From Nocardioides anomalus (lineage in GTDB: Bacteria > Actinomycetota > Actinomycetes > Propionibacteriales > Nocardioidaceae): 64,000 nt of DNA. The stretch spans positions 310,001 through 374,000 of the forward strand of contig NZ_CP049257.1 in assembly GCF_011046535.1 (NCBI RefSeq). The letters run 5' to 3'. Under the pieces are notes generated by a model. It did no database searches, was not told where the DNA came from, and worked only from the letters and a program-made list of their open reading frames with translations. A program made the position numbers and the translations under genes. This document shows, piece by piece, positions 12,132 to 35,098 of the stretch (positions are counted from its first letter, which is position 1; each line of letters starts with the position of its first letter).

Positions 12132-12929
12132 GTGGAGCTGGGCATCGAGGGCAGGACGGCGCTGGTCACGGGGGGTGACTCCGGGATCGGCTGGGAGACG
12201 GCGCGGATGCTGCTCGCCGAGGGCGCGACGGTCGTCATCTCCGACAAGGACGCCGACGAGCTGGCGCAGGCGGCACAGCGGCTGGAGGCGCCCGAGGGCC
12301 GGCTCCACCACGTCGCCGCCGACGTCACCTCGTTGGCCGAGCTCGAGACGCTGCGCGAGCGGGTCCACGAGCTGGCGGGACCGGTCGACATCCTGGTGCA
12401 GGCGTCGGGCGTGACCGGCGCCCAGGGGCTCTTCCACGAGATCGACGACCAGGGGTGGGTCGACACCCTCGAGGTCGACCTGCTGGGCCCGGTCCGGTTG
12501 GCGCGGACGTTCATCGACGACCTGCGCCGCGGGTGGGGCCGCCTGGTCTTCCTCACCTCTGAGGACGCCACGCAGCCCTACGACGACGAGCTGCCGTACT
12601 GCGCGGCCAAGGCCGGGGTGCTGTCCTTCGCCAAGGGCCTCTCCCGCAGCTACGCCACCGAGGGACTGCTGGTCAACTGCGTCTCCCCGGCCTTCATCCA
12701 CACCCCGATGACCGACGCGATGATGGACAAGCGCTCCGAGGAGCTCGGCGTCTCCTTCGACGAGGCGGTCGAGAGCTTCCTGGACGAGGAGCGTCCCTAC
12801 ATGGAGCTCAAGCGGCGCGGCGAGCCGGAGGAGGTCGCCTCGGTGATCACCTTCCTGTGCTCGGAGCGGGCCAGCTTCGTCAACGGCGCGGAGTACCGGG
12901 TCGACTCCGGCTCGGTCGCCACCCTCTGA
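12132..12929 (+). CDS. SDR-family oxidoreductase
   Basis: 265 residues from GTG 12132, with the good ribosome site AGGAG a few bases upstream. The classical short-chain dehydrogenase motifs are TGGDSGIG for the dinucleotide and YCAAK as the catalytic Tyr-Lys pair. The end, NGAEYRVDSGSVATL, is typical. The sequence SEDATQPYDDELPYC places an unusual acidic loop just before the catalytic Tyr. The substrate is not predictable. A longer frame upstream has no supporting start. Confidence 0.88.
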   Translation: MELGIEGRTALVTGGDSGIGWETARMLLAEGATVVISDKDADELAQAAQRLEAPEGRLHHVAADVTSLAELETLRERVHELAGPVDILVQASGVTGAQGLFHEIDDQGWVDTLEVDLLGPVRLARTFIDDLRRGWGRLVFLTSEDATQPYDDELPYCAAKAGVLSFAKGLSRSYATEGLLVNCVSPAFIHTPMTDAMMDKRSEELGVSFDEAVESFLDEERPYMELKRRGEPEEVASVITFLCSERASFVNGAEYRVDSGSVATL

Positions 12930-12986
12930 CCGTCCTCACCGGCGGGGACAGCGCATGAGCTCAGCGAAACGGGGAAAGCGGAGGCC

Positions 12987-13460
12987 ATGACGTCCATGCC
13001 CCGCTTCGATCATGTCGGGATCACCGTCGTCGACCTCGATGGCGCCACCTCCTTCTTCGAGAGCATCGGGCTGGAGGTCGAGGGGCGCTCGAGCATCGAG
13101 GGTGCCTTCATCGACACCGTCACCGGCATCCCGGGCTCGCGGACCGAGATCGTCATGATGAAGACGCCGGACGCCCACGCCCGTGTCGAGCTCTGCCGGT
13201 ACGTGCACCCGGACGCGGCGCCCGGCGACCCGGCTGCGATGGCCAACGTGCTCGGGCTCCGCAACGTCTGTTTCGAGGTCGAGGACCTCCCCGCGGCCCT
13301 GGACAGCGTCCGGGCTGAGGGCTACGGCCTGGTCGGCGACGTCGGGGTCTACGAGGACGCCTGGCGGATGGCCTACGTCCGCGGACCCGACGGCATCATC
13401 GTCTCGCTCAGCGACCGGGTCGGCGCCGCCCGGCACGACCCCGACGCGAGGCCGTCCTGA
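12987..13460 (+). CDS. VOC-family protein (glyoxalase/dioxygenase superfamily)
   Basis: 157 residues with two beta-alpha-beta-beta-beta repeats. FDHVGITVVDLDGATSFF opens the first, and LRNVCFEVEDLPAALDSV with YVRGPDGIIVSLSDR forms the second. Possible metal ligands are H9, E70-region and E-like positions, but the C-terminal glutamate is replaced by SLSD, so the metal site may be incomplete. A GGAGG site precedes the ATG. The role could be lactoylglutathione lyase-like, antibiotic binding or dioxygenase. Sequence alone does not decide. Confidence 0.8.
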   Translation: MTSMPRFDHVGITVVDLDGATSFFESIGLEVEGRSSIEGAFIDTVTGIPGSRTEIVMMKTPDAHARVELCRYVHPDAAPGDPAAMANVLGLRNVCFEVEDLPAALDSVRAEGYGLVGDVGVYEDAWRMAYVRGPDGIIVSLSDRVGAARHDPDARPS

Positions 13461-21442: not shown

Positions 21443-21614
21443 GGCGCGACCCTATGGCGACGCCCGCCCACGACGCCAGGGCGGGACAATGGTTTTCTGT
21501 CGACGTGTCCTGGCGGGCCCTCCAGCCATCGTGCGACTCGGAGACGCCGGAATTGGTTGTTCCTCGCTCATTAATTTGTTTGACGGGCATTCATAAAAGC
21601 CGATGTGAGATTCC

Positions 21615-21659
21615 CTTTTCGACCTGTTGACAGCCGAAAAGACCGGCGCTTACTTTTCG
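21615..21659 (+). promoter_or_regulatory. GH3 gene promoter with inverted-repeat operator
   Basis: TTGACA at 21627-21632 is a perfect -35 box, and TACTTT about 18 nt later is a fair -10. CTTTTCG (21615-21621) and CGAAAAG (21635-21641) form a perfect 7-bp inverted repeat around the -35 box. A third CTTTTCG follows at 21653-21659. These copies would suit a repressor such as the adjacent ROK protein. The region is noticeably AT-richer than its surroundings. Nothing else is seen in 21443-21614. Confidence 0.55.
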
Positions 21660-21763
21660 TCGTGTTTCCAGCAGATGAACGGATTCCCCCAGCGGCCGCC
21701 TTTCCGGGATCTCCGGTCGCGCCCTTCTGGCGTCCTCGTCGACGCCGTGCAGAGAGGACGACA

Positions 21764-24700
21764 ATGCACACGTTCACGACCACCACGAGGGGGTCGGGTG
21801 CTCGCCGTGCGACAGCGTTGCTGGGCAGCGCTCTCCTCGTCGGGACCCTGGCCTGGGCCGGGTCCGGCACCCTCGCCGAGGCGGCGGTCAGCGGGGCGCC
21901 CGCTGCCGCGAGCGCGGACTCGCCGGCCATCGCGGCCGACGCGCCGTACACCAAGACCGTCTCCTGGCTGCTCTCCCAGCTGAGCGTCGCGGAGAAGATC
22001 ACCCTGGTCCGCAGCGGCACCGACCCGGACAACCACGGCCAGGCGGGCTACCTCGCCGGCGTGCCGCGGCTGGGCATCCCCGAGATCCGTCACGTCGACG
22101 CCATGGGCATCAACACCCGCAACGACACCACCGCCTTCCCGACCCGGCTCGGGCTGGCGTCGTCGTTCAACCGCGACGCCTACACCGAGCTCGGTGAGCA
22201 GGTCGGCAAGGAGGGCCTCGCGAGCGACGTCGACCTCGTCTACGGACCCCAGGTCGACATGGCCCGCTTCCCGTCGTGGTCGCGCAACCTCACGACCAAC
22301 GGCGAGGACGCCTACGTCTCGAGCGAGTTCTCCGCGACCGAGATCAAGGGCATCCAGAGCCAGGGCCTGCTCTCGCAGGTCAAGCACGTGTCGATGTACA
22401 ACGGCCAGAACCAGGCCGTGCCGTCGCTGGTGAGCTCGCAGGCTGCGCACGAGGTCTACCTCGCCCCCGCGCAGTCGGCGATCGAGGACGGCGGCGTCTC
22501 CTCGGTGATGTGCTCCTACGCGACGTTCCAGATCGTCGGCGAGCAGAGCAAGCCGGACTACGCCTGCTCCAACTCCAACCTCAACAACCAGATCGTCAAG
22601 ACCGAGTTCGGGCTCAAGGGGTTCATCACCTCCGACTACGGCGGCAGCAAGGCCACCTCGGACCTGCTGGCCGGCATGGACAACGAGTTCTCCACGCAGA
22701 ACTTCACCGCGGCCAAGCTGACGCCGCTCGTGGACACCACCTCGTCGAGCTACGACCCGGCGTACGCCGCGCGGCTGGACGACGCGGTCGCCCGCATGGT
22801 CTACGAGTACGAGCGGTTCGGCCTGCTGGACAACAGCAAGATCCCCGCGGCCTACCAGTCGAGCGTCCCGCAGCACGGTGACGTCTCCTCGACCGACAAC
22901 AGCACGCACATCGACAAGCAGGCCGGCATCGCGCTCTCGCTCAAGCTCGCGGAGCAGTCGGGCGTCCTGCTCAAGAACGACGCGAACGCGCTCCCGCTGT
23001 CCACGTCCGGCACCGTCGCCGTCGTCGGCCCCACCGCGACGCTGATGCCCAGCAGCCCCGGTGGCGAGCGCTCCCGCGGCTTCGGGGACCGCAACACCAT
23101 CACCCCACTGAAGGCGATCCAGACTGCGATCGGGACCGCCAAGGTCACGTCGGCGCCCGGCGTCGACTGGATCGGCACCACGGTCCCGGCCGCCAACCTG
23201 TTCACGACCAACGACGTCACCGGCCCGCAGGGGCTGACCCTGACCGGTACCGACGCCAGCAACAACCCGATCACGCCCACGGTCGTGACCACGGTGGACG
23301 GCAACCAGACCAACCTGGCCAAGGGCGGGACCTACACCTGGACCGGCTACCTCAACGTCACGACCGCTGACAACTACCAGCTGCTGCTCCAGCGGCCCTA
23401 CGGCTCGGACTCCGGCATCCCGACCCAGTTCAACGGCGGCGTCGCCCCCGAGGGTCGCGGCGGCGGGGCGGCGTCGAGCATGACGCTGAGCGTCGACGGC
23501 GCGCAGCAGACGATCGCCAACCCGGGCAGCAACATCCTCCCGAACGACTTCCCGGACGCCAAGCGGGCCTCGAACGGCCAGTACCTCGGCAAGGACAACC
23601 AGGGCATCGCCCTGGACCTGACCCCGGGGCTGCACCAGATCTCGTTCACCTACAAGCCGCAGCTCACCACGGCCCAGACCCCGACGATGCGCTTCGCCTG
23701 GGCCCCGCTCAACGCCAACACCACCAAGTCGGTGCAGGCGGCGCAGAGCGCCGACAACACCGTCATCTTCGTCGACGACTCGGGCGCCGGTACGGCGGAG
23801 GGCGGCGGCGACAACTCGTCCACCACCGCCTCGCTCAAGGCACTCAGCGCCAAGCAGGCGAACCTGGTCAACACCGTCGCCGACGCGGCGCACGCGGCCG
23901 GGCACAAGGTCACCGTGGTCGTGAACTCCGGTGGCGCCATCGCGATGCCGTGGGCCAGCAAGGCCGACGCCATCTTGGAGATGTGGTACCCGGGTCAGGA
24001 GGGAGGGACGGCGACCGCCAACCTCCTGTACGGCACGACCGACCCCTCGGGTCGCCTGCCGATGACCTTCCCGAAGGACAACGACTCGACCCCGTTCAGC
24101 GGCAAGCCCGAGCGCAGTGCGGGGACCACCGCTGCTGACGAGACCACCCCGTCGATCAAGTGGACCGACGGCGTGGACGTGGGCTACCGCTGGTACACCG
24201 ACCCGACCGCCAACACGAGCGGATTCACGCCGCTCTTCGCGTTCGGCCACGGCCTGTCGTACACCACGTTCGACTACTCCGGCCTCGCGGTGAAGCCGGC
24301 GGCCGACGGTGGGCTCGACGTCACGTTCACGGTCAAGAACACCGGCACCCGGGCCGGCGGCACCGCACCGCAGATCTACCTGGGGAAGTCGCCGGACCTG
24401 GCGGCGCCGGTGGCCGACAACCACGGCATCGTGACGTCGGGGTTCCAGCAGTCGGCGCAGAAGCTGGTCCAGTTCGACCATGTCGACCTGGCCGCCGGCG
24501 CGTCGAAGACGGAGACGCTGCACGTCGACGTCCAGCAGCTGTCGGCGTGGGACGGCCCGGCGCAGAAGTGGGTCGTCGGCACCGGCGCCCGCACGGTGAG
24601 CCTGGCGGCGGCCTCGGACGACATCAAGCAGTCCGTCACCACCACCGTGCGCACCGACCTGGCGGCCCCGGCGGTCACCTCGCAGCCGCAGGCTGACGTG

Positions 24701-25225
24701 ACCACCACGGTCGGCGGCGTGGTCACGCTGAGCGCGGCGGCCACGGGCACCCCCGCCCCGACGGTGCGCTGGCAGCGCTCCGCCGACGGGGCCTCGTGGA
24801 GCGACGTGCCGGGTGCGGTGGCGACCAGCTACCAGTTCACCGCGACGGCGGCCGACAACGGTGCGCAGTACCGCGCGGTGTTCACCAACGACCTGGGCTC
24901 GGTCACCACGACCGCGACCAAGGTCCACGTCACCCGACCGGCCCTCAGTGCGCCGAGCATCAAGGAGGGCAAGCTCAAGCACCACGGCCGCTCCTACACC
25001 CTGAAGTGGAGCGCGGCGACGCCGGCGAGCTCGCTCGGTGGCTACCAGGTGCTCGACGGCTCCAAGGTGATCGCGACGGTCGGGTCCGACCAGACCCAGG
25101 TGAAGGTCAAGCTGTCCAAGGGCAAGCACAAGCTCGCCGTCCGGGCGGTCGCGGTCGACGCCCTCGTCCAGGGCGGTGACGTCACCTCCGCCACGGTCAC
25201 GGTGAAGGTCGGCAAGAAGAAGTAG
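21764..25225 (+). CDS. Secreted glycoside hydrolase family 3 protein with PA14 and Ig-like domains
   Basis: 1153 residues. A signal peptide (about 1-38, LLGSALLVGTLAWAGSGTLAEAA) opens it. The GH3 catalytic domain follows, with the nucleophile D291 in GFITSDYGG and substrate-binding residues in EIRHVDAMG. A PA14-like insert (about 530-640, YTWTGYLNVTTADNYQLLL) interrupts the C-terminal GH3 domain, which carries FGHGLSYTTFDYSGL and a fibronectin-like tail. An Ig-like domain (about 970-1060) and a lysine-rich end (VKVGKKK) complete it. It would cleave beta-glucosides or beta-xylosides outside the cell. The start at 21764 has AGAGAGGACG upstream. Confidence 0.92.
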   Translation: MHTFTTTTRGSGARRATALLGSALLVGTLAWAGSGTLAEAAVSGAPAAASADSPAIAADAPYTKTVSWLLSQLSVAEKITLVRSGTDPDNHGQAGYLAGVPRLGIPEIRHVDAMGINTRNDTTAFPTRLGLASSFNRDAYTELGEQVGKEGLASDVDLVYGPQVDMARFPSWSRNLTTNGEDAYVSSEFSATEIKGIQSQGLLSQVKHVSMYNGQNQAVPSLVSSQAAHEVYLAPAQSAIEDGGVSSVMCSYATFQIVGEQSKPDYACSNSNLNNQIVKTEFGLKGFITSDYGGSKATSDLLAGMDNEFSTQNFTAAKLTPLVDTTSSSYDPAYAARLDDAVARMVYEYERFGLLDNSKIPAAYQSSVPQHGDVSSTDNSTHIDKQAGIALSLKLAEQSGVLLKNDANALPLSTSGTVAVVGPTATLMPSSPGGERSRGFGDRNTITPLKAIQTAIGTAKVTSAPGVDWIGTTVPAANLFTTNDVTGPQGLTLTGTDASNNPITPTVVTTVDGNQTNLAKGGTYTWTGYLNVTTADNYQLLLQRPYGSDSGIPTQFNGGVAPEGRGGGAASSMTLSVDGAQQTIANPGSNILPNDFPDAKRASNGQYLGKDNQGIALDLTPGLHQISFTYKPQLTTAQTPTMRFAWAPLNANTTKSVQAAQSADNTVIFVDDSGAGTAEGGGDNSSTTASLKALSAKQANLVNTVADAAHAAGHKVTVVVNSGGAIAMPWASKADAILEMWYPGQEGGTATANLLYGTTDPSGRLPMTFPKDNDSTPFSGKPERSAGTTAADETTPSIKWTDGVDVGYRWYTDPTANTSGFTPLFAFGHGLSYTTFDYSGLAVKPAADGGLDVTFTVKNTGTRAGGTAPQIYLGKSPDLAAPVADNHGIVTSGFQQSAQKLVQFDHVDLAAGASKTETLHVDVQQLSAWDGPAQKWVVGTGARTVSLAAASDDIKQSVTTTVRTDLAAPAVTSQPQADVTTTVGGVVTLSAAATGTPAPTVRWQRSADGASWSDVPGAVATSYQFTATAADNGAQYRAVFTNDLGSVTTTATKVHVTRPALSAPSIKEGKLKHHGRSYTLKWSAATPASSLGGYQVLDGSKVIATVGSDQTQVKVKLSKGKHKLAVRAVAVDALVQGGDVTSATVTVKVGKKK

Positions 25226-25294: not shown

Positions 25295-25476
25295 CCTGTG
25301 CTCGGTGGACGCGTGTCCTCTACGGGCTGCCGGGTGCCCGCCGTGCTCACGGCGTGTCCGCCCTCGATGACGGGACGGACCCGCCCCGCAGCACCCGTTC
25401 ACGGGATGCCGGTGATCGTCTGCGCGCGGAGCATGGCACTGGTCAGTCGTCAGCCGTCCGGCGGTGTGGAGGGGTC

Positions 25477-27372
25477 ATGGGCAGAGCAGTAGGCATCGAC
25501 CTGGGAACGACGAACTCGGTGATCGCGGCGATGGAGGGCGGTCAGCCCCAGGTCGTCCCCAATGCGGAGGGCAACCGCACGACGCCGTCCGTGGTCGCCT
25601 TCCTGGAGAACGGCGAGCGACTGGTCGGTCAGATGGCGCGACGCCAGGCGATCCTGAACCCGAAGGGCACGATCTACTCCGCGAAGCGCTTCATCGGCCA
25701 CAGGTACGACGAGGTCGGCAGCGAGCTGACCGCCGTCTCGTTCGACGTGGTCCCGGGGCCGGACGGTGCGGCGCGCTTCCAGATCAACGGCAAGCTCTAC
25801 GCTCCGGAGGAGATCTCGGCGCAGGTGCTCCGGAAGCTGGTCGACGACGCCGGGAAGTTCCTCGGTGAGCGCGTCACCGAGGCCGTCATCACCGTCCCAG
25901 CGCACTTCAACGACGCCCAGCGACAGGCCACCAAGGACGCGGGGAGGATCGCGGGACTGGACGTCCTGCGCATCATCAACGAGCCCACGGCGGCCGCCCT
26001 CGCCTACGGGATGGACAAGCTCGAGAACGAGACCGTGCTGGTCTTCGACCTCGGCGGCGGCACGTTCGACGTGAGCATCCTGACGGTCGGGGACGGCGTG
26101 GTCGAGGTCCGGTCGACGGCCGGCGACACGCACCTGGGTGGGGACGACTTCGACCGGCGCATCGTCGACCACCTGGCCGAGGACTTCAAGAAGTCCAACG
26201 GCATCGACCTGCGTGACGACTCCCAGGCGCTGCAGCGTCTGTTCGAGGCCGCGGAGAAGGACAAGGTGGAGCTCTCGGCCGTCACCCAGACCGCTGTCAA
26301 CCTGCCCTTCGTCACCGCCGACGCCTCCGGGCCCCAGCACCTCAACGTCAACCTGATGCGCTCGACGTTCGAGCAGCTCACCGCCGACCTCGTCGAGCGC
26401 TGTCTCGGCCCGGTCCGACAGGCGCTGGAGGACGCCAAGGTCACCGCCGACGACATCGACGAGGTCATCCTCGTGGGTGGTTCGACCCGGATTCCCGCAG
26501 TGCAGGCGCTGGTACGCCGTCTGACCGGCGGCAAGGACCCCAACATGACGGTCAACCCCGACGAGGTCGTCGCCATCGGTGCGGCCGTCCAGGCGGCGAT
26601 CATCAAGGGCGACATCAAGGACGTACTGCTCCTCGACGTCACGCCCCTGTCGCTGGGGCTCGAGACCATGGGTGGGGTGATGACCAAGGTCATCGAGCGC
26701 AACACCACCATCCCGGCTCGGCGGACCGAGGTCTTCAGCACCGCCGAGGACGACCAGTCCGCCGTCGACGTCGTCGTCCTCCAGGGTGAGCGGGAGAGAG
26801 CAGCGGACAACCGCGTGCTGGCCCGGTTCCGGCTCGAGGACATCCGGCCCGCACCCCGCGGGACGCCCCAGATCGAGGTCACCTTCGACATCGACGCCAA
26901 CGGCATCCTGCACGTCTCGGCGCGCGACGAGGACACCGGCGCCGAGCAGCAGGTGACCATCAGCGAGACCTCCACGCTCAGCCCGGAGGAGGTCGACCGG
27001 ATGGTCAAGGACGCCGAGTCCCACCGCGGTGAGGACGCCGCCCTGCGCGAGCGGGTCGACGCACGCAACGACCTCGACTCCGTGGCCTACCAGGTGCGCA
27101 AGGCCCTCGAGGGCGCCGGCGCATCGGTGCCGGAGCACGACCGCGCCCGTGCCGAGATGCTGGTCGAGGAGGCCAGGCAGGCCATCGAGAGCGACCAGCC
27201 CGTCGACCGGCTCCGCGCCCTGACCGGGGAGCTGCACCAGCTGAGCCAGGCGCTGAACTCCGCGTCGCGAGGCGGTGGGGGACCCGCGGCCGGCGCGGCG
27301 AGCTCCCCGGGTGACCCCGCGAGTGACAGTGACGACGAGGACGTCATCGACGCCGAGTTCACGGCGCACTGA
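25477..27372 (+). CDS. dnaK: Hsp70 chaperone DnaK
   Basis: 631 residues, full length. The ATPase motifs are [19 protein letters not shown] and LVGGSTRIP. The substrate-binding domain (about 385-600) and an acidic end (DEDVIDAEF) follow, the latter standing in for the usual EEVD-like tail. DnaK holds unfolded peptides in an ATP-dependent cycle with DnaJ and GrpE. This is probably an additional copy, because it comes with ClpB and redox genes instead of the usual hspR. Whether the genome has another dnaK cannot be seen here. Confidence 0.97.
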
Positions 27373-27377
27373 CGGCC

Positions 27378-27896
27378 GTGGCCGACCTTGACGCACCGAC
27401 ATCCGAGACCACGGGGAACGTGACCCCGGAGCACGGAGACGGCGACGTCGAGCGCTTCGACCCAGCGCAGCGGGTCGCGGAGCTCGAGGACGCGTGGCGG
27501 CGTACGGCGGCCGAGCTGGAGAACGTCCGCAAGCGCTGCGCGCGCGACCTGGTCCGCGGCCGTGAACAAGAGCGGGCGGCCGTGGCGAGCCGGTGGCTAC
27601 CCGTTCTGGACAACCTCGAGCGGGCGCTCGAGCACGCCTCGTCCGAAGACGACTCCGTGGTCGAGGGCGTCCGGGCGGTGCTCGACCAGGCAGTGGGCGT
27701 CCTGGCCGATCTCGGATACCCGCGTCGCGACGACCACGGCCGGGCCTTCGACCCGGCCGTGCACGAGGCGGTCAGCACCGTGTCCGGTGAGGGGTTGGTG
27801 CCGGGCACGGTGGCCCAGGTCGTGCGTCCCGGCTACGGCCCCGACGACGACCTGCTGCGGCCGGCCGCTGTCGTGGTGGCCACCAGGGCGAGCTGA
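27378..27896 (+). CDS. grpE: Nucleotide exchange factor GrpE
   Basis: 172 residues. The N-terminal coiled-coil segment (about 30-75, AELEDAWRRTAAELENVRKR) and the beta-domain part (DPAVHEAVSTV and VAQVVRPGYGPDDDLLRPAAV) are those of GrpE. It releases ADP from DnaK and so resets the cycle. It starts 5 nt after dnaK and its stop overlaps the J-protein start (TGATG). The match to GrpE is clear, although it is shorter at the N-terminus than some. Confidence 0.92.
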   Translation: MADLDAPTSETTGNVTPEHGDGDVERFDPAQRVAELEDAWRRTAAELENVRKRCARDLVRGREQERAAVASRWLPVLDNLERALEHASSEDDSVVEGVRAVLDQAVGVLADLGYPRRDDHGRAFDPAVHEAVSTVSGEGLVPGTVAQVVRPGYGPDDDLLRPAAVVVATRAS

Positions 27897-28879
27897 TGGC
27901 TCGCGACTTCTACGAGGTGCTCGACGTGCCCCGCGGTGCCGACCCTGCCGACATCCAGCGGGCCTACCGCAGGCTCGCGCGCCAGAACCACCCCGACGTC
28001 AACAAGCAGACCGGTGCCGAGGAGCGGTTCAAGGACATCGCGGAGGCCTACGACGTGCTGTCGGATCCCGAGCTCCGCCGCCGCTACGACGCCTTCGGCG
28101 CGGACTTCCGACGGGTCCCTCCCGACACGGATCCGGCGAACTGGCGCCAGGCCCGGACGTACGCCGGAGCGGGTGCCTCCGCCGGGCGGGGCGGCCGCTG
28201 GTCGCCGGGGCCCGGCCCGTCGGGTGGCTTCGGAGCAGGTGACGTCGGCGACGACGTCGACCTCGAGGACCTGCTCGGGGGCATCTTCGGCGGCCGTCGG
28301 CCGGGCGGCCGGGGCTGGGCCGGCTGGGGACCGGGCCCGGTACCGGGATCCGACCACGAGGCCGAGGTGGAGGTGAGCGTCGAGGAGGCCTACCACGGCA
28401 CCGAGCGCAGCCTGACCATCAGCGGCCCCGACGGCCCGAGGACCCTGGACGTCACCATCCCGGCGGGCGTCGTCGACGGGCAGCGGATCCGGTTGCGCGG
28501 GCAGGGCGGTCAGGGCAGCGGTTCGGCGGGGGCCGGAGACCTCTACCTGGTGGTCCGGATCAGCGACCACCCGCGTTACCGGGTCGAGGGCCGCGACCTG
28601 CACGTCCTCCTGCCGGTGGCCCCGTGGGAGGCAGCGCTGGGGGGCTCGGTCTCGGTCGACACGCCCGGCGGCCCCGCCATGGTGAAGGTCCCGGCCGGCT
28701 CGTCCAGCCACCGGCGGTTGCGGCTCCAGGGCCGGGGGCTCCCCAACCGTCGCGGCGAGCCCGGAAGCCTCTACGCCGAGCTCCAGGTCCGCATGCCCAC
28801 GGCTCTCGCCGCCGACGAGGCCCGGCTCTTCGAAGAGCTCGCGCGAGTGTCGGGCTTCGACGCGAGGAGCGGACGGTGA
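27896..28879 (+). CDS. cbpA: J-domain protein of the CbpA type
   Basis: 327 residues. The J domain (1-70) has the HPD motif in RLARQNHPDVNK and ends FKDIAEAYDVLSDPELRRRYDAFG. A Gly-rich linker (about 75-150) follows, with no CxxCxGxG zinc fingers. Two C-terminal beta-domains for clients come last (about 170-310). Lacking the zinc-finger region makes it a class B J protein (CbpA/DnaJB-like) and not DnaJ proper. It delivers clients to DnaK. The following gene encodes a CbpM-like modulator, which supports the name. Confidence 0.92.
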   Translation: MARDFYEVLDVPRGADPADIQRAYRRLARQNHPDVNKQTGAEERFKDIAEAYDVLSDPELRRRYDAFGADFRRVPPDTDPANWRQARTYAGAGASAGRGGRWSPGPGPSGGFGAGDVGDDVDLEDLLGGIFGGRRPGGRGWAGWGPGPVPGSDHEAEVEVSVEEAYHGTERSLTISGPDGPRTLDVTIPAGVVDGQRIRLRGQGGQGSGSAGAGDLYLVVRISDHPRYRVEGRDLHVLLPVAPWEAALGGSVSVDTPGGPAMVKVPAGSSSHRRLRLQGRGLPNRRGEPGSLYAELQVRMPTALAADEARLFEELARVSGFDARSGR

Positions 28880-29186
28880 CCGCGGTCACGCGGTTCGCGA
28901 TCACCCGCCCCTACCGGCTCAGCCTCGCCAGCTATGCCCAGGTCACCGGTCTGCACCCTGAGCTGGTGCGCCGCCTGGTCGCTCTGGGCCTGCTGGACGT
29001 CACCCGCGACGCGCAGGGGCGCTGGTGGTTCGACCCCTCGCAGGTGAGGGAGATGGCCAGGATCCAGCGACTGCGGACGAGCCTGAACCTGGGCTACGGC
29101 GCCATCGGGCTGGTCGTCGAGCTGCTCGACCGGATCACAGCGCTGGAGAAGACCCAACAGCGACGGTCACGACGAGGAGGCGCCCC

Positions 29187-29196
<10 letters not shown>
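28876..29196 (+). CDS. cbpM: CbpM-like chaperone modulator
   Basis: 106 residues from GTG 28876, overlapping the cbpA stop. The fold is MerR_2-like: YAQVTGLHPELVRRLVALGLLD, WWFDPSQVREMARIQRLRTSLNLG and a C-terminal helix LVVELLDRITALEKTQQ. In Escherichia coli CbpM binds the J domain of CbpA and blocks its stimulation of DnaK. It has no clear HspR-like DNA-binding surface, but a DNA-binding role cannot be excluded. Its stop overlaps the ATG inside clpB (ATGA). Confidence 0.75.
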
Positions 29197-31820
<2,624 letters not shown>

Positions 31821-31824
<4 letters not shown>

Positions 31825-32273
31825 GTGCGACCACGCACAGGTCGTCCAAGGTCACCTGCGGCAACTGTGGAGCCACGAACCGCCTGCCGGCCGCCTCCGC
31901 CGGCGTTCCCCGGTGCGGGAGGTGCAGCACTCCACTGCCCTGGGTGGTCGACGCCGGCGACGGGGAGTTCGGAGCCGTCGTCGACGAGGCGAGCCTGCCC
32001 GTCCTGGTCGACGTGTGGGCGCCGTGGTGCGGGCCGTGCCGAATGGTGAGCCCGGTCCTGGAGAGGCTCGCCGGGGAGCTGGCCGGGGACCTCAAGCTGG
32101 TCAAGGTCAACGCCGACGACAACCCCGAGGTGAGCCGGCGCTTCGAGGTCCAGTCGATCCCGACGCTGGTCCTCCTCGACCACGCCCAGGTCGTCGACAA
32201 GCAGATCGGCGCCCTTCCCGAGCACCGGTTGCGCTCGTGGGTCGAGTCCAGCCTCGCGAGGCGGGAGCGGTGA
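31821..32273 (+). CDS. trxC: Zinc-ribbon thioredoxin (TrxC/Trx2 type)
   Basis: 150 residues. Two CxxC pairs (C13-C16, C32-C35) form an N-terminal zinc ribbon. The thioredoxin fold follows, with the active site WCGPC (69-73), then [21 protein letters not shown], where the cis-proline loop is IPT. This layout is that of E. coli thioredoxin 2, an oxidative-stress enzyme. It overlaps the clpB stop by 4 nt (ATGA), tying it firmly to the chaperone operon. It would keep client or partner thiols reduced. Confidence 0.93.
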
Positions 32274-32527
32274 GCGCCGACCCGCACCTCGGGATCATCC
32301 AGCCCGTCGCGCCGCCCGCGCGACGCGCCTGCCTCGAGTGCGTCCGGCTCGGCACGCCCTGGGTCCACCTGCGCCAGTGCCTGACCTGTGGTCAGGTCGG
32401 CTGCTGCGACTCCTCGCCGATGCGCCACGCGCGCGCACACGCCGCCGCGGTGGGTCACGTCATCGTGCGCTCGATCGAGCCGGGGGAGAGCTGGAGGTGG
32501 TGCTATGTCGACGAGCAGTTCGTCTGA
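32270..32527 (+). CDS. UBP-type zinc-finger protein
   Basis: 85 residues from GTG 32270 (GTGA overlap with trxC). Cys/His pairs C21-C24, C37-C40, C45, H53, H57 and H63 match the zf-UBP domain. In eukaryotes that domain is found in ubiquitin proteases and HDAC6, where it binds a C-terminal diglycine. In bacteria such small zinc fingers often stand next to redox or transport genes, and their target is unknown. The stop lies inside the next gene, which starts at 32505. Confidence 0.85.
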   Translation: MSADPHLGIIQPVAPPARRACLECVRLGTPWVHLRQCLTCGQVGCCDSSPMRHARAHAAAVGHVIVRSIEPGESWRWCYVDEQFV

Positions 32528-34173
32528 GTCGGATGGCGCAGACGTCCCCGAGACCCCCGACACCACCGGCGCCTACCCGCGGCTGACCGACGAGCAGATC
32601 ATGCAGCTCTCGCCGTACGGACGGCGGCGGGTGCTGACCCGCGGCACCACGCTGTTCTGCCAGGGCGACCGCGACTGCGGCCTGTTCGTCGTGCTGGACG
32701 GCACGGTCGGGGTGGTCCACGCGGACAGCGGCGAGGGGACGTCGACCGTGGTCGCCGTCCACGGGCGCGGTCGGTTCGTGGGTGACCTGTCGATGCTCAC
32801 CGGCCAGGCCGCCTACGTCACCGCCATCGCCCAGAGCGACGTCGAGGTCCTCGAGGTCGGCTACGACCGACTGAAGGAGGCGGTCATCCAGGACCAGGCG
32901 CTGGGGGACCTGATCCTGCGAGCCCTGATCCTGCGGCGCAGCATCCACGCGGACCTCGGCGTCGGCCTGCGGATCATCGGATCGCGCTACTCGGCCGACG
33001 CCCGCCGGCTGCGGGACTTCGCGAGCCGCAACCGCATCCCCGTGCCGCTGGCAGGACCTGGAGGACGATCCCGAGGCGGAGCTCACGCTGCGAGCGTTGG
33101 GCGTGCGGCCCGACCAGACACCCGTCGTGATCTGGAAGGGCGAGACGGTCCTGCGCAACCCCACCGTCACGGAGCTGGCGGACCTCGTCGGCCTGCGAGC
33201 GGCACCGAGCCGCGCGGCGTGGGACCTCGTGGTGGTGGGCGCTGGCCCGGGCGGTCTGGCTGCAGCGGTCTGCGCGGCCTCCGAGGGACTGTCGACGGTC
33301 GTCCTGGACGCCTTGGCCACCGGCGGGCAGGCGGCGACGTCGTCGCGGATCGAGAACTACCTGGGGTTCCCTGCGGGCATCAGCGGCGGCGAGCTCGCCG
33401 ATCGCGCCCTGGTGCAGGCCCGCAAGTTCGGTGCCGGCTTCAGCATCCCCGGAGAGGCCACCTCCCTCCGAGCGGCTGACGGCTACCACCTGGTCGGGTT
33501 GGCCGAGGGGGACGACCTGGTCGCCCACGCCGTGCTCATCGCCACGGGTGTGCACTACCGACGTCTCGACGTCCCGGGGTCGGACCGCCTCGAGGGAGCC
33601 AGCGTGTACTACGCCGCCACCGAGTTCGAGGCGCGGCTGTGTCGACACGACCCCGTCACCGTGGTGGGCGGTGGCAACTCCGCCGGCCAGGCGGCCTGCT
33701 TCCTGGCTGGACGGTCACCGGTGGTGAACCTGGTGATCCGGCACGACGACCTGGGGCGAGACATGTCCCGCTACTTGGCCGACCGGGTCGAGCAGTCACC
33801 ACGAGTGAGGATCTGGCGCCACAGCGAGGTGGGCCAGCTGCTCGGGGACGCAGCGCTCGAGGAGGTGGTGCTGCACGACCTCCACACGGGTGCGACCCAG
33901 CGTGTGGCGACGACGGCGCTGTTCGTGCTGATCGGTGCGGCACCGCGCACCAGGTGGCTCGAGCAGGAGGTCTCGCTGGACGAGAAGGGCTTCGTGCTCA
34001 CCGGACCTGGCGCCGGCGGCCGGGGAAGCACTTTCGAGACCCGTCGCCGAGGGGTCTTCGCCGTCGGCGACGTCCGCAGCGGCTCGGTCAAGCGCGTCGC
34101 CTCCGCCGTCGGCGAGGGATCGGTGGCGATCCGCCAGGTCCACGAGTTCTTGGAAGCGGAAGGACGTCGGTGA
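32505..34173 (+). CDS. Cyclic-nucleotide-binding, thioredoxin-reductase-like flavoprotein, frameshifted
   Basis: Residues about 35-155 form a cNMP-binding domain (TLFCQGDRDCGLFVVLDGTVG, then GRFVGDLSMLTG). A linker of about 60 residues follows, then an FAD/NADPH oxidoreductase (VVVGAGPGGLAAAVCA, VTVVGGGNSAGQAACFL, GVFAVGDVRSG). The CC at 33045-33046 breaks the frame. With one C the text reads through RIPVRWQDLEDDPEAEL and gives 555 residues. The redox CxxC of true thioredoxin reductase is absent; YYAATEF stands in its place, so it is not a standard TrxR. Its partner is probably the neighbouring thioredoxin or a flavodoxin. Confidence 0.85.
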
Positions 34174-34217
34174 GGACGACGCCGCCCACCGAGAGCACAC
34201 CACAGAGGAGGAGAAAG

Positions 34218-34805
34218 ATGAGCACCTACCAGGTCGGATACTTCGTCGGGAGCCTGTCGTCGACATCGATCAACCGCGTCCTGTCCAGAGCCCTCATCCG
34301 GGTGGCCCCGGACGACTTGGACTTCAGCGAGATCACCATCGGCGCCCTGCCCCTCTACAGCCCGGACTTCGACGACGACTACCCGCCCGAGGCCCGAGCG
34401 CTGAAGGCGGCGATCGCGGCTGTCGACGCGATCCTCTTCGTCACCCCCGAGTACAACCGTTCGATTCCTGGAGCGTTGAAGAACGCGATCGACTGGGCGT
34501 CGCGACCGTGGGGACAGAACTCCTTCGACCACATCCCTGCCGCGGTGATCGGAGCCTCCATCGGCCAGATCGGCACCGCCATGGGTCAGCAGAACCTGCG
34601 CGGAGTGCTCAGCTTCTGCAATGCGCGCCAGATGACCTCACCCGAGGCCTACATCCAGTACTCGCCCGCCGTCTTCCGCGACGACGGCGAGATCACCGAC
34701 GACTCCACCCGGGAGTTCCTGCGCGCCTTCATGGCCGAGTTCCGCGCGTACGTCGGCATGGTCCTGACCGTCCTCCCACGCCAGAAGGTGGCGAGCGACC
34801 ACTGA
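34218..34805 (+). CDS. NADPH-dependent FMN reductase
   Basis: 195 residues. The flavodoxin-like fold shows the phosphate-binding GSLSSTSINRVL, the loop PEYNRSIPGALKNAIDW and a GQIGTAMGQ turn. The family includes azoreductases, chromate and quinone reductases, and SsuE-like FMN reductases. A very strong ribosome site (AGAGGAGGAGAAAG) precedes the ATG. It is the last gene of the chaperone/redox operon, 44 nt after the flavoprotein, and probably protects against quinones or other electrophiles. Confidence 0.9.
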   Translation: MSTYQVGYFVGSLSSTSINRVLSRALIRVAPDDLDFSEITIGALPLYSPDFDDDYPPEARALKAAIAAVDAILFVTPEYNRSIPGALKNAIDWASRPWGQNSFDHIPAAVIGASIGQIGTAMGQQNLRGVLSFCNARQMTSPEAYIQYSPAVFRDDGEITDDSTREFLRAFMAEFRAYVGMVLTVLPRQKVASDH

Positions 34806-34829
34806 GGCCAGGGGCAGGTCCAGGGCGGT

Positions 34830-35098
34830 GCGGGTGTGGCGACCAGCCGCCTGCACGCCTCGCGGGCGCGGCGCGGTCGGACCTGGCGCGGGTAGGTCAT
34901 CGGCGGCACGCCGAGGTCCCGGTGGAAGGCTGCCTGGGGGCGCCCGACGCTGTGACTGTGACTGTGGCTGTGACTGTGCCGGCTGAGCAGGAGGCCGTCG
35001 ATCACCAGCGCCTCGACGTGCCTCGACACGGCGGGGTCGTGGCGCAGGTCGGTCGGGCTCTCCAGCTCGTCCGCGAGCGGGTCCATCGACCACGACAT
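34830..35098 (-). pseudogene. Remnant of an AraC-type regulator
   Basis: On the minus strand the text LADELESPTDLRHDPAVSRHVEALVIDGLLLS resembles the end of the AraC_binding_2 sensor domain. The later AAFHRDLGVPPMTYPRQVRPRRAREACRRL resembles the recognition half of an AraC DNA-binding domain. The first helix-turn-helix is missing between them, and a hexanucleotide repeat replaces it. The C-terminal end is lost too, so the gene is dead. It fills most of the 34806-35141 gap, and no other gene is seen there. Confidence 0.65.
34950..34978. repeat. Hexanucleotide microsatellite inside the AraC remnant
   Basis: CTGTGA-type hexamers repeat about five times (one unit changed to CTGTGG). On the minus strand they would encode an (His-Ser) run. 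Slippage here probably helped destroy the regulator gene. Confidence 0.8.

Follow-up and report, generated by a model that had tools for sequence, protein, structure and literature searches.

A second DnaK-ClpB gene block with redox partners in Nocardioides anomalus: probably an accessory, mobile operon of Actinomycetota with its own switch

Why should an actinobacterium hold a second set of disaggregating chaperones in one run with a thioredoxin, a UBP zinc finger and a flavoprotein that carries a cyclic-nucleotide-binding domain (CNBD)? The question is raised by a window of 64,000 nucleotides from Nocardioides anomalus (bases 310001-374000 of its one-contig 5.12-Mb genome, G000), in which nine genes follow each other on the plus strand between positions 25,477 and 34,805. 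A sequence-only reading had proposed a dedicated nine-gene machine, in which disaggregation and thiol/flavin repair are coupled, gated by cyclic AMP (cAMP) or cyclic GMP (cGMP) and placed under unconventional control. The analysis described here retains a good part of this proposal and abandons its gating. The region is probably an accessory, mobile protein-quality-control operon of Actinomycetota with a switch of its own; by gene sequence and order it is a recurrent block of eight genes, in which a complete second bichaperone set (DnaK, GrpE, a J protein and ClpB) is accompanied by a modulator resembling CbpM, the zinc-ribbon thioredoxin, the UBP protein and the CNBD-flavoprotein.

Gene spans were taken from open reading frames (ORFs), with start codons chosen by the analyst, and are given as window positions. 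The nine gene identities of the first reading were borne out by Pfam, with HSP70, GrpE, DnaJ plus DnaJ_C, MerR_2 and the ClpB domains in this order, followed by thioredoxin plus zinc ribbon, zf-UBP, cNMP_binding then Pyr_redox_2, and FMN_red. The DnaK protein (dnaK2, 25477..27372; HSP70, 807 bits) and the larger piece of ClpB (clpB2, 29187..31824, in two frames with a break near 29,330; TIGR03346, 1269 bits) exceed the curated cut-offs of NCBIfam. Between them lie grpE2 (27378..27896; GrpE, 111 bits), a CbpA-type J protein (27896..28879; DnaJ and DnaJ_C, no DnaJ zinc-finger domain in the Pfam listing) and a CbpM-like MerR_2 protein (28876..29196; MerR_2, 50.5 bits). The latter stays under the NCBIfam cut-offs of both CbpM (36.5 vs 138 bits) and HspR (24.4 vs 105 bits); its orthologues in plasmid records are annotated as chaperone modulator CbpM. 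The thioredoxin (Trx2/TrxC-like, 31821..32273) shows a Thioredoxin match, the motif WCGPC and two CxxC zinc-ribbon motifs with all four ribbon cysteines, at sub-threshold scores for the ribbon (Zn_ribbon_Thio2, 21.2 bits vs the Pfam cut-off of 27.1) and for the TrxC model (116.8 vs 125). Then come the ZnF-UBP protein of 85 amino acids (32270..32527; zf-UBP, 45 bits) and the flavoprotein (32505..34173), consisting of CNBD, linker and a part resembling thioredoxin reductase (TrxR), with cNMP_binding and Pyr_redox_2 on two pieces divided by a frame break near 33,040. According to the ORFs, a gap of 5 nt separates dnaK from grpE, and overlaps of 1 to 23 nt follow as far as the flavoprotein. The adjoining FMN reductase gene (34218..34805; FMN_red) starts 44 nt past the flavoprotein stop.

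The tight packing claimed for nine genes thus holds for eight, and conservation draws the same line. Contigs were scanned with ten UBP sequences, and the best 80 of 585 confirmed actinobacterial loci were analysed; figures per 80 loci refer to this sample. The exact order dnaK-grpE-cbpA-cbpM-clpB-trx-UBP-cNMP-flavoprotein was present in 53, from Nocardioides, Streptomyces, Nocardia, Mycolicibacterium, Gordonia, Pseudonocardia, Mycetocola and Arsenicicoccus among others. For eight genes, the order is thus kept in relatives, which the sequence-only reading had made its own criterion. The remaining 27 comprised seven with UBP alone, three with UBP after the flavoprotein and 17 partial or rearranged loci, some at contig ends. 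Single genes were counted as follows: CNBD 70, flavoprotein 68, dnaK, grpE and cbpA 66 each, clpB and cbpM 65 each, and trx 63. An FMN reductase was detected in none of the 80 UBP-chosen loci. When window positions 25301-34900 were compared by blastn (E limit 1e-50) with four relatives (L034, L047, L048, L050), one block of homology resulted, from about 25,390 to 34,118-34,174; it starts at a palindrome described below and ends at the flavoprotein stop codon or just before it, with the FMN reductase outside. On the strength of both results, the FMN reductase was rejected as a ninth member.

Nine loci fetched from the same-genus genome G005 and from five other genomes of the order kept the gene order, with exceptions. 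All eight genes were found in L034, L039 and L040; L036 and L037 end at a contig edge within clpB, and L042, in which UBP lies 3 kb past the flavoprotein, was cut by the fetch within dnaK. Two genomes (G030 and G035; L038-L041) possess two operon copies each, and one of each pair is without trx and cNMP-flavoprotein within the fetched 20 kb. Some loci (L095, L106) hold UBP and the CNBD-flavoprotein without a chaperone match in 20 kb, which suggests that the two are partners. Several neighbours recur by the operon: a YflT-type stress protein in 16/60 loci, Hsp20 in 8/60 (recognised by eye) and, downstream or near by (as in L087 and L120), DUF1931 (Pfam) in 18/60 and another small family, presumably DUF2267, in 10/60.

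The distribution is that of an accessory element. UBP proteins with at least 65% identity occurred in 2/25 same-genus genomes (G000 and G005) and in five further genomes of the order; a phylum-wide search with a UBP profile returned 28/296 genomes at E <= 1e-32, three of them with scores of at least 160 bits. A ClpB tree (44 of 70 rows, quick method) placed Mycetocola and Arsenicicoccus inside a group of nine rows otherwise made up of Nocardioidaceae and the window's genus, and a single clade for Microbacteriaceae was rejected by the approximately unbiased (AU) test (p-AU 8e-6). In a plasmid collection with 85 matched records, 19 encode a ClpB with at least 72.5% identity, and these 19 all belong to actinobacterial genera; the following matches stay below 62%. 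UBP was present on 12 plasmid records. A Streptomyces plasmid carries all eight genes; the copy on the Rhodococcus NJ-530 plasmid is rearranged between trx and flavoprotein. Insertion sequence (IS) elements lie near three of four plasmid copies viewed, and an Arthrobacter plasmid, with ftsH and a trypsin-like peptidase also near its operon copy, was typed as conjugative. The operon would therefore appear to be accessory and horizontally mobile in Actinomycetota, the plasmid and IS evidence coming from relatives and not from the window itself. Two observations on plasmids may be added. In L148 (Rhodococcus plasmid, 12511-13451) the matches to trx and flavoprotein abut, without matches to UBP and CNBD, as if an internal segment had been lost. 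On plasmids from Paraburkholderia, Rhizobium, Deinococcus and others, the flavoprotein has relatives of about 46-53% identity; for several of them the annotation reads cyclic nucleotide-binding domain-containing thioredoxin-disulfide reductase.

Is the copy in the window still a working one? The frame changes in clpB and in the cNMP-flavoprotein gene are absent from the four relatives compared by blastn; at other loci ClpB is a single ORF in 71/71 cases and the joined cNMP-flavoprotein in 72/73 (exception L061). These two private breaks, together with a regulator gene that is unlinked in this genome and the remnant of a regulator-like gene next door, could mean that clpB and the flavoprotein gene are pseudogenes of a decaying island, so that the operon no longer works in this strain; intact relatives could nevertheless be described as above. 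Such decay should be reckoned with but is unlikely, as a sequencing error would look no different, the remaining genes read through, the palindrome is intact, and the canonical clpB of the same genome runs in one frame. Sequencing error and real mutation are not separated by the sequence alone. The remnant, at window 34772-35086 on the minus strand, is a partial match to a regulator (AraC type by eye; 32-34% identity over 119-142 amino acids) and looks like an eroded gene; members of the matched family adjoin the operon in some relatives.

A second possibility is that the block is a spare heat-shock operon of the HspR type, with the CbpM-like protein as autorepressor and the redox genes as passengers. 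The MerR_2 protein is indeed related to HspR, as its score of 24.4 bits indicates, a link between CbpM and HspR was proposed in PMC4063869, and trx, UBP and flavoprotein are missing from some copies. The genome does contain another locus of this kind, as the sequence-only reading had advised looking for: a second dnaK (4118389-4120128), next to which lie grpE and the gene of a J protein, with clpB near by and an HspR-like protein (by eye), in the canonical manner dnaK-grpE-dnaJ-hspR. Identities between window and canonical copies are 52% for DnaK and 56% for ClpB. Sequences resembling the HspR-associated inverted repeat (HAIR), with two and three mismatches, were located immediately upstream of the canonical copies of clpB (4112288) and dnaK (4120172); the same genome scan found none near the window operon and two further sites with two mismatches elsewhere. 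A reversed HAIR pattern, used as control, gave more matches than the pattern itself (102 vs 39 per strand), so that a weak match alone is meaningless and the weight lies on the two positions. Upstream of the window dnaK, the best matches to HAIR and to the controlling inverted repeat of chaperone expression (CIRCE) had 6/14 and 8/18 mismatches, as had been noted at the outset from inspection; HspR/HAIR and CIRCE control were rejected on these poor matches and on the HAIR-like sites at the canonical loci instead. With trx, UBP and flavoprotein also holding their position in 53/80 loci, and with a different palindrome and regulator occurring together, a spare HspR operon is improbable.

This palindrome, ACCCGT-N2-ACGGGAT (25393..25407, plus strand), ends 69 nt 5' of the dnaK ATG and is a candidate operator. 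It was spotted by eye in a listing of upstream regions and tested afterwards. The genome has one exact site and three more with one mismatch. Among 71 upstream regions of operon loci, eight possess it (seven exact, one with one mismatch), its end lying 61-69 nt before the ATG; in the 63 remaining regions at least three positions deviate, and shuffled sequences reached two mismatches or fewer in 5/1420 cases. Exact copies at three places in G009 and G033, two of 39 genomes and both without the operon, were taken as chance. The pentamer AGCAT (25430..25434, plus strand), a candidate -10-like element, begins exactly 22 nt past the palindrome, a spacing kept in 7/8 palindrome loci (L047 differs). 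Operators of the NarL/LuxR type consist of inverted heptamers spaced by two, a 7-2-7 layout into which the palindrome may be fitted. Unbiased counts of dyads and 7-mers in the 71 upstream regions revealed no motif common across lineages.

A regulator co-occurs with the palindrome. A MEDS-GerE (LuxR-type) protein, assigned by Pfam for two proteins and by homology for the others, ends 101-563 nt before dnaK in L034, L047, L048, L049 and L050; the gene lies downstream in L066 and L123, so that it is linked in 7 of 8 palindrome loci overall. Among the 39 genomes (own included), MEDS-LuxR was detected at E <= 1e-40 only in G000 and G005, which are the same-genus operon genomes. In other lineages a divergent PucR-helix-turn-helix (PucR-HTH) protein lies up to 1.9 kb upstream in 30/64 loci with a dnaK start (37 with a match anywhere), and on the Streptomyces plasmid helix-turn-helix and MEDS proteins are divergent beside the operon. 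The suspicion of unconventional control was therefore well founded, considering the separate palindrome with its co-occurring regulator and the HAIR-like sites elsewhere. In the window itself, the place taken by the MEDS-LuxR gene in five relatives, directly upstream of the operon, is occupied by a gene (21605-25225, plus strand) for a large protein of glycoside hydrolase family 3 that has Fn3/Ig-like domains.

What could the redox part do? By Pfam (62.6 bits), the domain has the CNBD fold. In CRP, Arg82 is the arginine of the phosphate-binding cassette. The arginine at this position is absent in all 74 parsed of 75 CNBD homologues; one of the 74 has an arginine at another point of the segment, and L105, the homologue that was not parsed, likewise shows none. 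The flavoprotein lacks CxxCD in every case (0/73) and has a YxATxxEA-type motif in its place (73/73); one lone cysteine is conserved in 40/41. The TrxR fold with its dinucleotide-binding motifs was recovered by Pfam and in a model of an intact orthologue, which bears on the TrxR/AhpF part, to which the fold search was limited, and hardly on CNBD and linker; the glycine-rich motifs are conserved. An ordinary thioredoxin reductase for thiol repair is not supported, given the missing CxxC (73/73), and the name thioredoxin-disulfide reductase given to some orthologues is likely a misnaming, as the active-site cysteines are absent in the operon family. The machine first proposed, in which cAMP or cGMP on the CNBD would gate flavin/thiol repair and disaggregation as one coupled process, has the CNBD match and the recurrent position of the domain in the operon in its favour; it is very improbable, with the cassette arginine and CxxC missing and the FMN reductase not conserved. 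What the evidence supports is a dedicated operon of eight genes that combines disaggregation and redox functions; the FMN reductase drops out of it, and a conventional thiol-repair enzyme finds no support.

For the UBP protein, a single-sequence search found 2IDA, a hypothetical protein, as the only solved chain. Alignments to 2IDA and HDAC6 showed that the zinc-finger family match and the aromatic WCY strand are retained. In ZnF-UBP domains that bind free ubiquitin C-termini, the pocket arginine (CGR motif of HDAC6) functions in ubiquitin binding; here CCDSSP replaces it, invariant in 10/10 UBP sequences. UBP matches occur at two more places in the genome, in one case as the C-terminal zf-UBP domain of a Na+/H+ exchanger fusion (at about 5051513 of G000:C1; L044 7934-10225), and many same-genus genomes show long open frames around a UBP match.

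From these parts a mechanism may be sketched. Under stress, DnaK, CbpA and GrpE together with ClpB would dissolve aggregates, CbpM would restrain the J protein, and the thioredoxin would reduce wrongly oxidised cysteines of clients or chaperones. The flavoprotein with its UBP partner could be an NAD(P)H/FAD-bound sensor or electron donor, which cannot act through the classical CxxC relay, because CxxC is absent. In the clade of the window, MEDS-LuxR may bind the palindrome, whose centre falls near -44 from the presumed transcription start when AGCAT is read as the -10 element, and activate the operon, which would then respond to a signal of its own, independent of HspR; beyond this clade, the position is often taken by different regulators, PucR-HTH proteins for example. 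While the parts are known, their assembly and the pseudo-reductase are unexplained. Tentatively, and with the whole chain of assumptions being rather unlikely, the following could be imagined: a transmissible stress-tolerance operon of Actinomycetota's own, in which an AhpF-like pseudo-reductase serves as redox or dinucleotide sensor, its disulfide centres lost, a lone cysteine kept, and its CNBD no longer able to bind cyclic nucleotides in the familiar manner; UBP would dock on a non-ubiquitin C-terminus and steer DnaK/ClpB or thioredoxin to damaged proteins, and the inducer in the window's clade would be small hydrophobic or electrophilic compounds sensed through MEDS, not heat.

Several points weigh against an accessory, mobile operon with its own switch. 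The sequence shows frame breaks in two of the eight genes, so that this copy may not be a working one, and co-transcription is inferred from gene overlaps. Choosing loci by UBP favours operon members, and 53/80 is not the operon's frequency; the hypothesis rejected in the AU test was named after the identities had already been seen. The redox part is not always kept: there was no match to trx, UBP or flavoprotein on the Gordonia and Arthrobacter plasmid stretches, L035 is without the cNMP-flavoprotein, and L037, L038 and L041 are without trx and cNMP-flavoprotein. As to the switch, few loci, related to one another, make up the palindrome clade, the MEDS-LuxR gene of the window's genome is unlinked (1190166-1191029), the exact palindrome and MEDS-LuxR are both missing from five other operon genomes (G027, G030, G032, G035, G036), and neither a MEDS nor a PucR regulator was seen in 21/64 loci with a dnaK start.

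A literature search of titles and abstract starts, with subscription journals mostly outside it, found no description of the operon, which is weak evidence for its novelty; comparisons can be made with known systems. The order dnaK-grpE-J protein-MerR-type gene is that of the actinobacterial dnaK-grpE-dnaJ-hspR operon, but the genes are paralogous, HAIR is missing, the J protein is of CbpA type, and clpB, trx, UBP and flavoprotein are added. In cbpA-cbpM of E. coli, too, the J protein has no zinc finger and the next gene encodes a small modulator related to MerR, although here the CbpM score is far below its cut-off and the pair sits inside a DnaK/ClpB operon. The flavoprotein differs from thioredoxin reductase and AhpF by the missing CxxC, the CNBD in front and the one lone conserved cysteine. 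According to PMC8784404, EtnR1 and EtnR2 are PucR-HTH and MEDS regulators of a mycobacterial alkene monooxygenase, and MEDS is described there as sensing hydrocarbon derivatives; the MEDS and helix-turn-helix pair by the operon on the Streptomyces plasmid and the MEDS-LuxR protein in the window's clade are similar, except that a chaperone operon is the target and that MEDS is fused to a LuxR-type helix-turn-helix in this clade.

The closest comparison is with the transmissible locus of stress tolerance (tLST) of proteobacteria, whose core is given as dna-hsp20-clpG in PMC8290217. Both are mobile and supplement the core copies with additional genes for disaggregase, chaperones, thioredoxin and quality control, and transmissibility by mobile elements, which belongs to the definition of tLST, is seen in relatives of the operon (plasmids, IS elements). 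Unlike tLST, the operon has ClpB instead of ClpG/ClpK, a full DnaK-GrpE-J set, UBP and the CNBD-flavoprotein, and lacks the dna-hsp20-clpG core; Pfam detected no Hsp20 among the nine window genes. The ClpB model scores 1269 against a cut-off of 1232, while ClpG (750) and ClpK (743) both remain below 1900, by which membership in tLST was excluded. The operon is an actinobacterial counterpart of the proteobacterial islands and not a member of them. If this is true, the portable protein-rescue islands of the tLST idea were assembled a second time, independently, in Actinomycetota, where the disaggregase set is a different one, the switch is the operon's own and the pairing of flavoprotein and UBP is unexplained, and a testable system becomes available for the coupling of redox state and disaggregation and for the ligand of a bacterial UBP zinc finger.

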